Shown here piece by piece: positions 578-7,357 of a stretch of DNA of 9,905 nucleotides. Position numbers and translations under genes: made by a program. The DNA lies in contig JACVQG010000025.1 of NCBI GenBank assembly GCA_015661045.1, positions 1 through 9,905 of the forward strand. The letters run 5' to 3'. Every line of letters starts with the position of its first letter. Within the stretch, counting starts at the first letter, position 1. Source of the DNA: Dehalococcoidia bacterium (GTDB lineage Bacteria; Chloroflexota; Dehalococcoidia; JACVQG01). The notes beneath the pieces were generated by a model that worked only from the letters and a program-made list of their open reading frames with translations, was not told the origin of the DNA and searched no databases.

Positions 578-606
578 TTGAAATCCCCCTGTCAGGCTGT
601 TATAAT
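578..606 (+). promoter_or_regulatory. Strong sigma70-type promoter for the PHP gene, producing a near-leaderless mRNA
   Basis: TTGAAA (578-583), a 17-base spacer, then a perfect TATAAT (601-606). Transcription should begin near 613-614, only about five bases before the ATG at 619. No Shine-Dalgarno-like sequence lies between the -10 box and the start codon, which fits leaderless translation. The match is by eye and the start site is predicted. Confidence 0.75.
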
Positions 607-618
607 CCTTTCTAGCCA

Positions 619-1377
619 ATGTTTAGAAAGCTTGATTTTCACATTCATTCACCAGCCTCTGATTGTTACGCTGATAACATGAGCCCCGAGTCCAACATTC
701 ATACCTCCCCGCAGGAAATTGTGGATGCTGCCATTACGGCTGGTCTTCACGGGATAGCTATTGTTGACCATAATAGCGCTATATGGATAGATAGAATGCA
801 AAAAGCGATCCGGGGCGCCCCGGTAGTCCTTTTCCCGGGCATAGAGATCTCTTCTAAAGGCGGGCACGTTCTGGCTATTTTTGAGCCGGAGACCCCATCG
901 ACAGAACTCACCAGGTTGGTTCAGGACATTGGATTCGCTCCTGCTCAGTTCGGACTAGGCTACCTTGAGGCAGACAAATGGATGGACGAGGTCTTTAATC
1001 TGATAACGGAACGAGGCGGATTGGCAATCTCGGCCCACGTTGACCGCCGACCGCGCGGTTTTATCGCTGCCTCTGAGATTGCCACCGACGTAAAAAAGCG
1101 TATTTTCAATAATCCTAATCTGCAAGCTCTGGAAATTACCATTCCTCAAAATAAACAACTCTGGAATGACGGACAAATGCCGGGTTTCCCGCAAGGCAAG
1201 GCTTGTGTCCAGGGTTCCGATGCTCATGCGCCTGCAGAGATGGGACGGCGGCCTATTTATGTCGATATACCTGAACTTAATCTCGATGGCCTCCGGCTGG
1301 CTTTCCTGGAATACAAATCCAGAATCAAATTCCCAAACGAGATCGAATCTGAGGCGGCTCCAAAAGCCCTGGCTTAG
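619..1377 (+). CDS. PHP-domain metal-dependent phosphoesterase
   Basis: A 252-residue stand-alone PHP protein (polymerase and histidinol phosphatase superfamily, the metal-dependent TIM-like barrel also found in DNA polymerase III alpha and HisK). Visible metal-ligand motifs in order: H8-I-H10 with SPASDC after it; IVDH (D50, H51); PGIEIS (E76) with GGH (H83); ISAHVD (H140); and GSDAH (D201, H203). All expected ligands are present, so it should be an active hydrolase, probably of a phosphomonoester or phosphodiester. The substrate cannot be read from sequence; relatives include 3',5'-nucleoside bisphosphate phosphatases. The segment around 85-170 is longer than in minimal PHP proteins. It is soluble, with no signal peptide. 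The start is supported by the LDFHIHSPASD opening, which is normally within ten residues of the N-terminus. It is first in a plus-strand group with the small membrane protein and the PlsY-like gene. Confidence 0.88.
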   Translation: MFRKLDFHIHSPASDCYADNMSPESNIHTSPQEIVDAAITAGLHGIAIVDHNSAIWIDRMQKAIRGAPVVLFPGIEISSKGGHVLAIFEPETPSTELTRLVQDIGFAPAQFGLGYLEADKWMDEVFNLITERGGLAISAHVDRRPRGFIAASEIATDVKKRIFNNPNLQALEITIPQNKQLWNDGQMPGFPQGKACVQGSDAHAPAEMGRRPIYVDIPELNLDGLRLAFLEYKSRIKFPNEIESEAAPKALA

Positions 1378-1429: not shown

Positions 1430-1585
1430 ATGATACAAATCGCCGGCGCTATAGCTATGATAGGTATCTGGATAATTCTTTACCCATTCACTACCAAAGA
1501 TGTAACCCGCGCTCCATGGCTTCATGTGCTATTGGGAGCAGTAACTGCTCTTTTAGGAGTATGGGCTTCATTTACTGTCCGTTAG
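1430..1585 (+). CDS. Small two-helix membrane protein, 51 residues, function unknown
   Basis: This short gene has a strong ribosome binding site, AGGGAGG at 1414-1420, nine bases before the ATG. The 51-residue product has a hydrophobic helix at about 2-20 (ending IILYPF), a short polar loop TTKDVTRAP, and a second helix at about 30-48 (WLHVLLGAVTALLGVWASF). The WLHVLLGA...LLGVW pattern recalls one unit of SPW-repeat membrane proteins, but I would not assign it to that family on this evidence. It lies 52 bases after the PHP gene and 52 bases before the PlsY-like gene, all on the plus strand, so the three are probably cotranscribed. An earlier ATG at 1422 gives only a three-codon frame (MIQ-stop) and is too close to the ribosome binding site to be used. 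No function is assigned. Confidence 0.72.
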   Translation: MIQIAGAIAMIGIWIILYPFTTKDVTRAPWLHVLLGAVTALLGVWASFTVR

Positions 1586-1637: not shown

Positions 1638-2282
1638 ATGGCTTCGATAGCCTTCATTATTAGCGCTTACCTGATTGGCTCCATGCCCCAGGTGTACTGG
1701 CTTATAAGACTCAAAGGCAGCGACATACATGGCAACGACTTGCATGAACATCTATGGAGTTTGAGCCATAAGCTGGGGGCTATCGGGTTTATAATCGATT
1801 TAGCCAAAGGGGCGGTTGTTATTTTGTTGGGCAGGTGGCTTAATTTCCCCGTGGAAACAATCGCTATGGCTGGACTGTTGGTCGTAGTGGGGCAAATGTG
1901 GCCGGTTTACCTCCTTCGTTCAGGAGGCGGAGGCAATAGCGCAGCATCAACCGTGGCGCTAACATTAGCGGTTTACCCATTTTTAATTGCGCTTATTCCA
2001 GTTTTGATTGGCTTAAGCTGGAGAATTGTTACCCATATTAAGAAAGGGCAACATCCACTCGGTCATCCACATAGTAAAAGTATGCCCATCGGGGTATTTA
2101 CCGCGTTGGCCACCCTGCCACTGTCCAGTTGGTTATTGAGTGAACCGATAGCAATAACTCTTTCATTTCTGGGACTGTTCGTAACCATAATCGGGCGCAG
2201 GTTAATAAAAGGGTTGATTGAAGAATCCCGCGTTAAACCGCTCACAGCAAAGATAGTTTTAAAGCACTTTATTTTAGATTAA
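1638..2282 (+). CDS. PlsY-like integral membrane protein with degenerate acyltransferase motifs
   Basis: A 214-residue polytopic protein with about six hydrophobic segments (roughly 3-24, 46-66, 74-94, 107-130, 150-167, 169-187). The opening ISAYLIGSMPQVYWLIRLKG and the IIDLAKGA segment match the glycerol-3-phosphate acyltransferase PlsY (acyl-phosphate dependent, first step of phospholipid synthesis). The catalytic signatures are altered, however. Motif 1, usually GSGNIGATN, reads HGNDLHEHLW here. Motif 2, usually GHxFPxF...GGKG, reads GQMWPVY...GGGG (His to Gln at 86, Lys to Gly at 98). The C-terminal arginine-rich HREN motif is not recognisable. A His-rich loop (GQHPLGHPHS, 137-146) is unusual. 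It is therefore a PlsY-fold protein that either uses another substrate or is inactive. The start has only a weak AGATGGA upstream. Its 3' end converges with hisS, 15 bases away. Confidence 0.75.
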   Translation: MASIAFIISAYLIGSMPQVYWLIRLKGSDIHGNDLHEHLWSLSHKLGAIGFIIDLAKGAVVILLGRWLNFPVETIAMAGLLVVVGQMWPVYLLRSGGGGNSAASTVALTLAVYPFLIALIPVLIGLSWRIVTHIKKGQHPLGHPHSKSMPIGVFTALATLPLSSWLLSEPIAITLSFLGLFVTIIGRRLIKGLIEESRVKPLTAKIVLKHFILD

Positions 2283-2297
2283 TTCTAAATCATCTAT

Positions 2298-3551
2298 CTA
2301 TAACCGGTTTATTTCAGACACCAATTTATCCTGAGGAACCGGCCGTTGTTCACTGGTGGACATGTCCCTTAATATCGCGATGCCTTGCCGTAATTCATCA
2401 TCACCCAGAAGGAGAGTAAATTTCGCCCCCAGAGCATTAGCATGACGGAACTGTGCTTTCAGGCTTTTGTTTCCCAGAGCTTGCTCGGTTGAAACCCCCG
2501 CTCGTCTAAGCTGTGTCACTATCTCTTTAGACTTTAATCTGGCTGCTTCACCCACGAAGGCAACAAATACTTGCGGTTGCGGTACAGGTGGCACAGCAAC
2601 GTTCTGCCTTTTCAAATTGAGAACGATGCGCTCGATTCCGGTCGCCAGGCCCACTGCAGGAGTAGGCTGGCCGCCTAACTCTCCGATTAATCCATCATAA
2701 CGGCCGCCGCCGCCGATAGTGCTCTGAGCGCCCTCCTCTTTAGGCTGGACCTCGAATACCGTGCGGGTATAATAATCCAGGCCCCGCACCAGACGGTGGT
2801 TAATGTTGAATGGAATCTCCAGGATGCCTAAATATTTTTGGAGTGAAGCGAAGTGGCTGGCACAGTCAGCACAGAGATAATCGGAATTACGCGGCGCTGC
2901 CCCGGAGATTGGCTGGCAGCTTGCCTGTTTGCAGTCGAGTAACCGCAAAGGGTTCTTTTCATAGCGGATTTTGCAATCATTGCAGACACTGGATAATTGG
3001 CCTGAGTAATATTTTTTCAATAACTCCAGATATTTCGGACGGCATTCCCTGCACCCGATCGAATTAAGCTGCAAACTAAGTCCATTTATGCCAAGGGAGC
3101 TATATAGCTGCCAGGCCATGTCTATAACCTCGGCATCCAGAGCAGGATCGGATTCACCTATAGCCTCATAGCCAAACTGATGGTGCTCCCGGTACCTGCC
3201 GGACTGTGGCCGCTCATAGCGGAATATCGAAGAGAAATAGTACAGCTTTACCGGTTGGGGAAGAGTATGCATACCGTGTTCGATATATGCCCGGCATACC
3301 GGGGCTGTGCCCTCGGGACGCAGAGTCATCAAACTCTTGCCACGGTCTTCAAAGGTGTAAGTTTCCTTTTCAACTATATCGGTCCCCTGGCCTATAGTGC
3401 GGGTAAAAAGGCCGCCTTCTTCAAAAACCGGGGTATCTATGCGCTTATAACCATAAATATTGCATAAATGGATGGCCTTATTTTCAATATACCGCCAGTA
3501 TTGCTGTTCAGAGGGGAGAATATCGAATGTCCCACGCGGGGCCTTAAACAA
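2298..3551 (-). CDS. hisS: Histidyl-tRNA synthetase (class II), TTG start
   Basis: HisRS, 417 residues, normal length for bacteria; charges tRNA-His in the cytosol. Seen: the FKAPRGTFDILP opening; TLRPEGTAP; motif 2 with YYFSSIFRYERPQSGRYREHHQFG (103-127); the histidine-binding loop GLDYYTRTVFEV (257-268); GGGGRYDGL; motif 3 GLATGIERI (301-309); and the C-terminal anticodon-binding domain from about 325 to 417. The insertion at 166-233 holds eight cysteines (C167, C170, C190, C193, C207, C212, C227, C230), an arrangement found in a bacterial HisRS subgroup and suggestive of a metal-bound or structured insertion. The start codon is TTG at 3551; an AGGAGG precedes it by five bases and the next in-frame ATG would remove the conserved N-terminus. 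It lies 90 bases downstream of the protease gene on the same strand. Confidence 0.97.
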   Translation of the reverse strand: MFKAPRGTFDILPSEQQYWRYIENKAIHLCNIYGYKRIDTPVFEEGGLFTRTIGQGTDIVEKETYTFEDRGKSLMTLRPEGTAPVCRAYIEHGMHTLPQPVKLYYFSSIFRYERPQSGRYREHHQFGYEAIGESDPALDAEVIDMAWQLYSSLGINGLSLQLNSIGCRECRPKYLELLKKYYSGQLSSVCNDCKIRYEKNPLRLLDCKQASCQPISGAAPRNSDYLCADCASHFASLQKYLGILEIPFNINHRLVRGLDYYTRTVFEVQPKEEGAQSTIGGGGRYDGLIGELGGQPTPAVGLATGIERIVLNLKRQNVAVPPVPQPQVFVAFVGEAARLKSKEIVTQLRRAGVSTEQALGNKSLKAQFRHANALGAKFTLLLGDDELRQGIAILRDMSTSEQRPVPQDKLVSEINRL

Positions 3552-3556
3552 AAATT

Positions 3557-3562
3557 CCTCCT
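3557..3562 (-). promoter_or_regulatory. Consensus ribosome binding site that fixes the TTG start of hisS
   Basis: AGGAGG on the minus strand, five bases upstream of TTG at 3549-3551. A perfect Shine-Dalgarno at this spacing supports TTG as the real initiation codon, together with the conserved FKAPRGT residues right after it. Confidence 0.8.
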
Positions 3563-3573
3563 ATAAAAGACGT

Positions 3574-4889: not shown

Positions 4890-4917
4890 GTAAGGGCACG
4901 GCATGCCGTGCCCCTAC
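4890..4917. repeat. REP-like palindrome, 28 bases, overlapping the end of the AOR-family gene
   Basis: The core GGGCACGGCATGCCGTGCCC (4894-4913) is a perfect 20-base palindrome with no spacer. The flanks GTAA and CTAC extend pairing to 28 bases with one mismatch, which would be a G-U pair in the minus-strand transcript. It contains the TAG stop (4914-4916) of the oxidoreductase gene. Its GC richness and symmetry resemble dispersed palindromic repeats (REP-type) in bacterial intergenic regions. As RNA it would form a strong hairpin after the stop codon, but no U-run follows, so it is better called a repeat or mRNA 3'-end stabiliser than a canonical terminator. I saw only this one copy in the window. 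Confidence 0.7.
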
Positions 4918-6836
4918 GGAGATAAAAGATTATCTTTTTTTAGCCCCTCCGCCACTTCCGGCATCCCTAGCTCTGTGAGTTTCGTTTTAGTCTGGAGTCC
5001 GGTGGCCACATCCCATTCCCTCAGAGCATAATACTCGTCTTTCATCTTTTCGAATTTTTGCCTGTCCAGCACCTCGCCTTTGCGGCTTACTGGTTCGCCG
5101 TTTTTACCCGGCACCAAACACTCCGGCTGCACCAGATGATACCGTAATGGCGACGTGAACCAGGTGGCAGTAACAGTATCGGCATCCCGACCCCGGTGCC
5201 CTTCCCTTGTCATAATCGCCCGCTGTAAATTAAATATCCGCTCTCCGAATCTATTTAATCCGGCCTCGTCAACTTCCTGACCGGTAATGGCGGAGTACAC
5301 TTTACTTTCAAAACCCGGGTCTCCCACATGCTCTTCCTCGAACTCCACATCGGTGATAGGCCATAGCCAGTCACATAGGACCAGGCTCTCCTTAAGATGC
5401 TGCCTATCCTGGATTTTGAGGGCGCTTAATGCCTTGCCCTCATAGGTCGAGAAATCGGCTGCTATCTCGCTTCCCCAGAACTTCTTAGCTATAGCCCGGA
5501 CAAGGTCGCTGGAGACGAAAGCCCCAGGATCCTTGTGCACCCACTTCAGCCATCGCCCCACGAGCAAAACGATCTCGTGGAGTTGCTGGATAGGCTGGCG
5601 CGGCTCCATTGCCATGAGTAGGGCGGTGGTTATATATACACGAGGCTCGTAGTCGCTCCTCTGTCCAGAATTGGTAAAGTAATCCGTCAGTTGTTCCTGA
5701 GCCTTTGGTCCTAATTGGGCGGCCGCTTTGAAAGTCCCACCGGCCAGTATTTCACCGAATCCCTGTCTCAGAGCAATTGTCTTGATAAGGGACTCTATAA
5801 ACTCCAGGCTACCCGGCTTAGAAAGAGGAATACCGGTGCTTTCCTCGGTGATAACACCTGCCTGAAAGCAACGCCATAGCCAGAGAATCATAACATCCAG
5901 GGTATTAGTATCCACACCGTATTGGTCGCATAGCTTGGTAGCAAAAAATGGCACCTCGGTCTTCTTCCCGTAGAACTTCTCTGCCCGGGCTTGATAGAAG
6001 AGGCCGGCCTGGCACATGAATTTTCCTTTTTGCCCGTTCTCAGCCTGGTATGTGCGGCGGGAGCAGTTACCGATACAACCGTAACACACATCCTTTTTTA
6101 CATTCGGCCCTTCAAACACGCCCTGAATACCGACCGGGTTCCCCTTTCGTAGTATCCGAAATCTATCTAATAATTCTTTAAACCCCTGAGGATTAGCTAC
6201 AGGAAAATTCTTTTTCGTTCCTTTTACCACAACGGCTTTAAGATTTTTTGAACCCATAACTGCACCCAGCCCGCCCGAGCCACTGGCATCGTTATCAGCC
6301 AGGATAGTCGCCAGGGCTACCTGATTTTCACCCGCCGGGCCGGTAGTTACTACTTTAACCGAAGCCCCTAGCTCGCCTTTAAGCATCTCCCGCGCGTCCA
6401 TAGCGCCTTTGCCCCAGAGCGCCGATGCATCTTTTATTTCAACTTTTCCATCATGGATAAAAAGATATACAGGCTTATCAGACTTGCCGTGGACAACCAG
6501 GGCATCATAGCCCGCAAATTTAAGCTCTGCGCCCCAGTGGCCTCCAAAATTGGAATAGGTGAAATGCTCCGGATTGATTGCGGAGGATTTACCACAAACC
6601 ACCCACCGGCTGCCGCCGATAGATGGATAACACGATAAAGGACCGGTGGCAAAGGTCAAACGGTTGTCTGGGTCAAGAGCTTTTACATGCGGAGGAACCT
6701 CGTCCCAGTGGATTTTGGCAGCCAGGCCACGTCCCCCCAGGAACCGGTCGGCATAAACCGCAGTCGAAGACTCCGTACTTTTCCCTGCGGATAAGTCCAC
6801 CCGCAAAATTTTGCCCGTATATGGAGAGATAGCCAT
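4914..6836 (-). CDS. Aldehyde:ferredoxin oxidoreductase family protein (tungsten-type), divergent member
   Basis: 640 residues, typical of AOR enzymes, which oxidise aldehydes to acids at a tungsten-bispterin site and pass electrons to ferredoxin in the cytoplasm. Seen: the N-terminal pterin domain (KILRVDLSAG, FLGGRGLAAK, SNFGGHWGAELKFAGYDALVVHGK at 95-118, TGPAGEN, GAVMGSKNLKAVVVKG); the [4Fe-4S] motif C251-x2-C254-x3-C258; and the likely fourth ligand C488. The first pterin signature DxxGL(C/D) is present as DQYGVD (304-309). The second reads ESLVLC (483-488), with Asp to Glu and Gly to Val. The usual arginine-glycine-alanine-cysteine-histidine stretch after the PxYDPR-like segment is replaced around 396-420. 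This suggests a subfamily distinct from the classical aldehyde enzyme; the substrate is open. AGGGGG lies five bases before the ATG. An 87-base spacer separates it from hicA. Confidence 0.92.
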   Translation of the reverse strand: MAISPYTGKILRVDLSAGKSTESSTAVYADRFLGGRGLAAKIHWDEVPPHVKALDPDNRLTFATGPLSCYPSIGGSRWVVCGKSSAINPEHFTYSNFGGHWGAELKFAGYDALVVHGKSDKPVYLFIHDGKVEIKDASALWGKGAMDAREMLKGELGASVKVVTTGPAGENQVALATILADNDASGSGGLGAVMGSKNLKAVVVKGTKKNFPVANPQGFKELLDRFRILRKGNPVGIQGVFEGPNVKKDVCYGCIGNCSRRTYQAENGQKGKFMCQAGLFYQARAEKFYGKKTEVPFFATKLCDQYGVDTNTLDVMILWLWRCFQAGVITEESTGIPLSKPGSLEFIESLIKTIALRQGFGEILAGGTFKAAAQLGPKAQEQLTDYFTNSGQRSDYEPRVYITTALLMAMEPRQPIQQLHEIVLLVGRWLKWVHKDPGAFVSSDLVRAIAKKFWGSEIAADFSTYEGKALSALKIQDRQHLKESLVLCDWLWPITDVEFEEEHVGDPGFESKVYSAITGQEVDEAGLNRFGERIFNLQRAIMTREGHRGRDADTVTATWFTSPLRYHLVQPECLVPGKNGEPVSRKGEVLDRQKFEKMKDEYYALREWDVATGLQTKTKLTELGMPEVAEGLKKDNLLSP

Positions 6837-6923: not shown

Positions 6924-7151
6924 TCATTTGGCAAAGAACTCTTCTCCTGAAATACCACTTCCCTCTATAATGCTCTTTAGCGTGCCCAACGGCAATTGTT
7001 TACCTTTGTGGTAAGGTACAATTACCTGCTTTCCCCTGTCCGGATGGTGCCACTTCTGATGGCTGCCCCGCTGTGAGATTAGCACAAATCCATGTTGTTC
7101 AAGCACCCTGTTTACCTCAGTAGCTTTAAGCCTCGGTAGCTTTCGTGGCAT
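6924..7151 (-). CDS. hicA: HicA-family toxin (mRNA interferase)
   Basis: A 75-residue HicA/YcfA protein with a double-stranded-RNA-binding-like fold. Seen: the LPRLKATEVNRVLEQHGF opening; the catalytic segment QRGSHQKWHHP with the presumed active histidine H31 after Gly-Ser; the VIVPYHKGKQLPLGTLKSII segment; and the usual C-terminal helix. HicA toxins cleave mRNA independently of active translation and are blocked by HicB. The start overlaps the hicB stop by one base (TGATG), so the pair is translationally coupled. All expected residues are intact, so it should be active. It follows its antitoxin gene on the minus strand. Confidence 0.93.
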   Translation of the reverse strand: MPRKLPRLKATEVNRVLEQHGFVLISQRGSHQKWHHPDRGKQVIVPYHKGKQLPLGTLKSIIEGSGISGEEFFAK

Positions 7152-7357
7152 CAGGCTGGCACTTCCACCTCGTAAGCCTTTTCATTAGGCCCCAATTTCA
7201 ATGGAACTGGCTCTAAATAGAGCGCCAGCGCCTCTTTCATGTGTTCAAGAGTTTCTTCTTCTGTATCCCCAGCGCTGCAACAACCTGGCAATTCAGGACA
7301 ATAAGCGGCATAACTCTTTGTTTCAGTATCATATTCCACAATTATCCGGAATTTCAT
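7151..7357 (-). CDS. hicB: HicB-family antitoxin, short form without a DNA-binding domain
   Basis: 68 residues with the partial RNase H fold of HicB: FRIIVEYDTETKSYAAYCPELPGCCSAGDTEEETLEHMKEAL is represented at 3-44, with the family hallmark PELPGC (21-26). Longer HicB antitoxins carry a C-terminal helix-turn-helix or ribbon-helix-helix domain for autoregulation; this one ends after a VEVPA strand and has none. It presumably neutralises HicA but cannot bind DNA by itself. A strong GGAGG (7366-7370) lies eight bases before the ATG. Only 27 bases separate it from the glyS stop and I see no promoter there, so transcription probably comes through glyS. Confidence 0.92.
   Translation of the reverse strand: MKFRIIVEYDTETKSYAAYCPELPGCCSAGDTEEETLEHMKEALALYLEPVPLKLGPNEKAYEVEVPA

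Follow-up and report, generated by a model that had tools for sequence, protein, structure and literature searches.

The stretch of DNA analysed here, called the window, is the 9,905 nucleotides of contig JACVQG010000025.1 from a Dehalococcoidia bacterium. Its gene at nt 1638–2282 of the forward strand encodes a PlsY-like membrane protein of 214 residues with a rewritten active site. From the sequence comparisons below, we give about an even chance to the reading that the gene is a diverged plsY paralogue, whose product keeps the predicted PlsY fold and probably the acyl-phosphate donor, and would transfer the acyl group not to glycerol 3-phosphate (G3P) but to another acceptor. An earlier reading made from the letters alone (the sequence-only reading) had proposed a PlsY fold with altered motifs, a new substrate or a regulatory role, and a functional module with two neighbouring genes. 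The fold, the replacement of site residues in a fixed pattern and a second plsY in the genome support it in part, but the gene linkage is narrower than it was written.

PlsY-like protein and its relatives

The window protein scores 54.7 bits against Pfam PF02660 (G3P_acyltransf), above the curated cut-off of 24.1. Its score against TIGR00023, the PlsY equivalog model, is far under the cut-off (30.4 against 137.2 bits). The top NCBIfam match is PRK14417 (NF010993) at 79.7 bits, below the cut-off of 249. Structure prediction returns the PlsY fold with seven helices, so the retained fold proposed from the letters is borne out at the level of prediction. PlsY of Aquifex aeolicus (5xj5–5xj9), a TIGR00023 member, belongs to the same PF02660 family and shares the positions D54, K57-G58, G85, W88, G96 and G99 with the window protein, whereas the latter retains not one of the nine active-site side chains named for that enzyme.

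The open frame is confirmed, and its relatives are of like length. The five nearest distinct relatives display 81, 77, 63, 56 and 57% identity over lengths of 214–216 residues, and full-length frames of this size are found in P0002–P0005, P0007, P0008 and G001, a genome of the same genus. The database entry P0006, 99% identical to the window protein, has 143 residues and starts at residue 72. This shorter entry could be taken as a sign that the gene is in decay, as could the faster divergence of the PlsY-like protein between the window and G001 (54% identity) in comparison with the PHP neighbour (71%) and hisS (77%). However, the differences between the two genes fall mostly at the third codon position (42, 20 and 67% at positions 1, 2 and 3); synonymous sites are saturated in this sole pair with DNA and dS is undefined. 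The same substrate-site changes are fixed across the clade. With intact, conserved copies in addition, decay is extremely improbable and is set aside, as the sequence-only reading had argued.

That reading also pointed to a His-rich loop. The loop is there in the window protein (GQHPLGHPHSK), but the relative with 81% identity has GQPPLGPPHSK, without two of the three histidines, which removes the loop as a functional mark.

Active site

According to a paper on Aquifex PlsY (PMC5700162), the phosphate of G3P is clamped by Ser35, Arg45, Lys104 and Asn180, and its 2-hydroxyl is contacted by Ser142 and His177. The acyl-phosphate is held by His92 and Thr41, and Asn37 helps the intermediate. The same paper reports that alanine at residue 35, 41, 45, 104, 177 or 180, six of the nine site residues, costs more than 90% of the activity, that H92Q alone retains 16%, and that Ser142 is only 52.6% conserved in PlsY.

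All nine of these side chains are changed or deleted in the window protein; the change at Ser142 is the least informative because of its low conservation. The altered motifs HGNDLHEHLW (residues 31–40), GQMWP (85–89) and GGGG (96–99) are present as the sequence-only reading gave them. The codons of Asp34-x-His36, at nt 1737–1745 (+) as computed from the residue numbers, align with Aquifex Ser35-x-Asn37. The segment GQMWP...GGGGN (residues 85–100, nt 1890–1937, +) carries Gln86 in place of His92 and Gly98 in place of Lys104. Arg188 of the pair Arg187-Arg188 (nt 2196–2201, +) is aligned to His177.

The site was counted in 56 aligned rows, namely 7 of the clade that holds the window protein (the window clade) and 49 other rows with the Asp-x-His pair; L089, L091 and L097 are not included. 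Ser35 to Asp, Asn37 to His, His177 to Arg and the absence of residues 40–42 (Aquifex numbering) are found in 49/49 and 7/7 rows. His92 is Gln in 43 of the 49 (the rest being Glu in 2, Met in 2, Leu in 1 and Arg in 1) and in all seven window-clade rows. The change of Lys104 to Gly holds for the window clade (7/7) but is confined to it, as the surrounding Asp-x-His group keeps Lys or Arg in 49/49. The Arg45 column, less surely aligned owing to a gap in one alignment, has Arg in 19/49 rows and in 1/7 of the window clade.

The G3P phosphate clamp is thus gone from the window clade: position 35 is Asp in all seven rows, position 45 is Ser in five, Gly in one and Arg in one, position 104 is Gly in seven, and position 180 is Val, Ile or Leu in seven. 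Together with His177 to Arg (7/7), the last of these confirms the reported loss of the C-terminal motif. The acyl-phosphate contacts are also lost from the window protein, His92 being Gln and Thr41 deleted. The glycine-rich loop of the phosphate hole is retained by sequence, with G96 in 56/56 rows and G99 in 54/56. D34, H36, R188 and D214 are invariant (56/56), and N100 is found in 55/56.

Such a loss would also fit a catalytically dead PlsY. A serious rival, though an unlikely one in our estimate, is that the protein became a lipid-binding or regulatory membrane protein, such as an acyl-phosphate sensor or a docking partner for proteins of the FakB type. The change of all nine side chains, six of which cost Aquifex PlsY nearly all of its activity in the alanine experiments cited above, is consistent with it, as are genes for PadR (16/65) and HAAS (18/65) within 5 kb of family loci. 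On the other side stands the new polar set listed above: fixation of such residues at precisely the former catalytic positions is not what one would expect of a dead enzyme.

Distribution and order of change

A family profile was searched against 294 Dehalococcoidia genomes, and 67 matched at the E 1e-20 cut-off. The PlsY-like family, one branch of the PlsY relatives, is counted in 59 of the 294: 56 genomes at 148 bits or above, and G106, G010 and G094 at 88–94 bits, whose genes also carry GQMWP. The other eight (74–83 bits) were left out; the one gene read among them, that of G267, is of the His92 type. A scan of genome contigs with the pattern GQMWPV[FY]xx[FR], which relatives with another motif would escape, gave 48 relatives, each labelled as Dehalococcoidia, as one of its subgroups or as Chloroflexi/Chloroflexota. 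No earlier description of the family was found in the accessible portion of the open-licence literature, which is weak evidence of absence.

The tree comprises 83 rows, of which 67 belong to the family and 16 carry His92; L089, L091 and L097 were left out. The His92 rows split to one side (support 99/98). Next comes a grade in which 11 rows have Gln92 but lack Asp-x-His, and its inner order is weakly supported (83/54, 95/73). The 56 Asp-x-His rows group together (100/99) and contain the seven-row window clade (100/100), whose neighbours in the tree, G002 and G004, come from the same order (9 rows, 100/96). The labels fit the tree with the minimum possible number of changes. Removal of the motif columns leaves the change counts identical and lowers the support (window clade 97, His92 split 52). 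On this tree the branch altered its active site stepwise: first His92 became Gln, next came Asp/His in place of Ser35/Asn37 together with the loss of residues 40–42, and last, in the window clade, Lys104 became Gly.

Known PlsY enzymes carry out a single reaction in a rigid active site. Stepwise replacement of that site within a retained fold, with living intermediates, makes the residues that set the acceptor testable. It also calls for caution in naming, as not every PF02660 protein is PlsY, and several members of the present family are so named in public sources.

Canonical plsY and other paralogues

A PF02660 search of the window's own assembly, which is 67% complete, identified a canonical plsY at G000:C206 with 166.8 bits. 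It passes TIGR00023 (171.3 bits) and, read by eye, sits between der- and gpsA-like frames. The second canonical plsY that the sequence-only reading had asked for is thus found, and the window gene is not the genome's only copy. The best PF02660 match reaches E 1e-34 or better in 57 of the 59 family genomes.

These data bear on the proposal of a second PlsY, in which the protein would remain a glycerol-phosphate acyltransferase despite its unusual site and would serve other chains or conditions. The 16% activity of H92Q (PMC5700162) would allow for it, as would the acceptance of both glycerol phosphates by B. subtilis and E. coli PlsY (PMC13400652). Lys or Arg at position 104 of the 49 Asp-x-His rows points the same way, as do two genomes, G038 and G277, that show no other plsY. 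Yet the window clade loses Ser35, Lys104, His177 and Asn180 in 7/7 rows and Arg45 in 6/7, and the window's own genome holds the canonical gene. We regard this proposal as improbable.

PlsY paralogues have multiplied in the class beyond the PlsY-like family. The f15 genomes (e.g. G017, G052, G096, G189 and G197) have 4–6 PF02660 genes each, and G202 has nine. PRK14417, named only as a membrane protein, is such a paralogue in the single-contig genomes G017 (L025) and G052 (L021). Like the window protein it has Arg at His177 and has lost Asn180; unlike it, L025 retains His92 and Ser35/Asn37, and the tree places it on the side of the His92 rows. L025 and L098 represent this second paralogue type, with His92 and most of motif 1 kept, His177 changed to Arg and no Asn180. 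Judged by these residues, its acceptor is also uncertain.

Neighbourhood of the family genes

Neighbours were counted in six frames within 5 kb of 65 family loci. The labels DegV, AAA_33, CBS, FAD protein, Prs, HAAS and PHP were taken from the Pfam match of one representative each; PadR and the aminopeptidase were named by eye. DegV is the commonest neighbour counted (27/65). In 17 loci it is no more than 1 kb away on the same strand; in five others, all of family f15, it is equally close on the opposite strand. AAA_33, a small P-loop kinase, follows with 23 loci, 22 of them on the same strand within 1 kb. Then come HAAS (18), PadR (16), a leucyl-aminopeptidase-like protein (13), Prs (9), CBS (7), the FAD protein (7) and PHP (3). 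The recurrent order is PadR, HAAS, DegV, PlsY-like and kinase, and it is seen also in G002. PadR and HAAS genes are known from regulated membrane cassettes.

DegV accompanies family genes far more often than canonical plsY: it lies within 2 kb of 9/19 family genes and of 0/34 plsY controls, a comparison for which the Fisher test used is blind to kinship; the controls are the strongest PF02660 matches among those listed for G000–G059, and only that of the window's genome was read in sequence. One family-linked DegV, a single representative, matches FakB1 structures at E 1e-33. The one kinase representative has its best solved matches at E 3e-8 and 4e-8. Dak2 (FakA-type) genes occur in 19 of 21 genomes, the window's own included, and PlsX in 17 of 21; PlsX was not found in the window's 67%-complete assembly. 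FakB-type DegV proteins deliver fatty acids to FakA, and the acyl-phosphate that FakA produces is the donor of PlsY (PMC9136124). Separately, in G051 a PlsY-like match (nt 3191–3571, in the region G051:C50:1726-4434) is flanked by DegV matches on one contig, and this genome has 12 DegV matches in total.

The linkage claimed earlier is narrower than proposed, and the wider linkage is to DegV, the small P-loop kinase and PadR/HAAS. A fatty-acid module is better supported than a phosphate-ester module. The window protein itself is not a part of the FakA/FakB fatty acid kinase; the functional link is suggested by gene order, with DegV in 27/65 loci and a FakB-like match in the one representative tested.

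A further reading is an acyl-phosphate hydrolase, in which water replaces G3P and acyl-phosphate is drained or recycled. The DegV linkage fits it, and the lost G3P contacts, the kept glycine-rich donor loop and an Asp-x-His that could activate water would suit such an enzyme. Against this, the kinase gene that 22/65 loci carry on the same strand, no more than 1 kb away, hints at the phosphorylation of a small molecule nearby. We hold the hydrolase to be improbable.

Proposed reaction

The DegV/FakB link, the FakB1 match and the occurrence of Dak2 and PlsX make it most likely that the family still deals with acyl-phosphate. As the G3P site is dismantled and a canonical PlsY is present for the ordinary reaction, the simplest reading is that the acyl group goes to another acceptor. 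As its glycines are kept, the loop whose backbone amides hold acyl-phosphate would still be working. In the window clade G3P would not be the acceptor, because both the clamp and the Ser142/His177 contacts to the 2-hydroxyl are lost, and since even the last basic clamp residue is gone, the acceptor there would carry no phosphate. The new Asp34-x-His36 pair may activate the acceptor as a base.

Extended to the whole family, these steps suggest a membrane acyltransferase of the PlsY fold in Dehalococcoidia, fed by a dedicated FakB and with an Asp-x-His dyad replacing the substrate-assisted chemistry of PlsY, that would build a membrane lipid on a backbone other than glycerol phosphate, phosphate-free in the window clade. 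This fuller picture, drawn from sequence and gene order, is tentative and on the unlikely side. Dehalococcoidia are common in sediments and include the organohalide-respiring Dehalococcoides group, and if the acceptor is new, it would point to an undescribed lipid in this class.

Several observations weigh against a new acceptor for acyl-phosphate. The donor site has changed as well, since it has lost residues 40 and 41, by which the acyl carbonyl of acyl-phosphate is held. Outside the window clade Lys or Arg 104 is kept and position 45 is still Arg in 19/49 rows, which leaves room for a phosphate-bearing acceptor there. G038 and G277, both 93% complete, each show one weak PF02660 match and no canonical plsY; the family protein could be their only PlsY, unless the gene falls in an assembly gap. 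DegV is absent within 5 kb of 38/65 family loci, and the PlsY-like genes of the window and G001 have none close by; none was found in the window's 67%-complete assembly, and G001 carries one elsewhere. The context of the window gene comes from this incomplete genome and a single relative of the same genus.

Genes flanking the PlsY-like gene in the window

Upstream of the PlsY-like gene, nt 619–1377 (+) encode a PHP-type phosphoesterase-like protein of 252 residues, and nt 1430–1585 (+) a hydrophobic protein of 51 residues, presumably a membrane protein as read from its sequence. G001 has the same three-gene order, with 71% identity for PHP and 78% over 46 residues for the small protein. The three-gene order of the sequence-only reading is therefore present and recurs, but the genes are adjacent in only 2/65 loci, the window and G001. 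In G030 a PHP gene of 51% identity lies 2.3 kb upstream of the PlsY-like gene, upstream of the DegV cassette; this arrangement bridges the PHP type and the DegV-cassette type. PHP relatives occur in 26/294 genomes (E 1e-25), and only in these three of the 65 family loci do they lie within 5 kb. The 51-residue protein has, beyond itself, one strong match (G001) and one weak match (G272, E 3e-5) in the 294 genomes. A module defined by PHP and the small protein is thereby reduced to a genus-level arrangement.

The PHP neighbour scores 23.7 bits against Pfam PHP, the cut-off being 26.4, and no solved relative was found by sequence at E 0.001. H8, H10, D50, H51, E76, H83, H140, D201 and H203, putative metal ligands, are invariant in the three sequences. 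Within the window's genus the adjoining PHP gene could, speculatively, supply a dephosphorylated acceptor. A sigma-70-like promoter match (TTGAAA-17-TATAAT, 11/12) lies just before the PHP gene at nt 578–606 (+), and is no more than a hint, with four such matches seen in the region and 3.6 expected.

The window and G001 share further flanking genes, named by eye: hisS, an M50 peptidase, an aldehyde ferredoxin oxidoreductase and glyS. The oxidoreductase-like gene is at nt 4914–6836 (−) of the window. Like the window, G001, G002 and G004 (L081, L082, L083) have such a gene, named by eye, in the vicinity of the PlsY-like gene; in G002 and G004 it is on the PlsY-like strand. At nt 6924–7357 (−) of the window are two adjoining small frames of 75 and 68 residues, which by eye alone resemble a HicA/HicB toxin–antitoxin pair.
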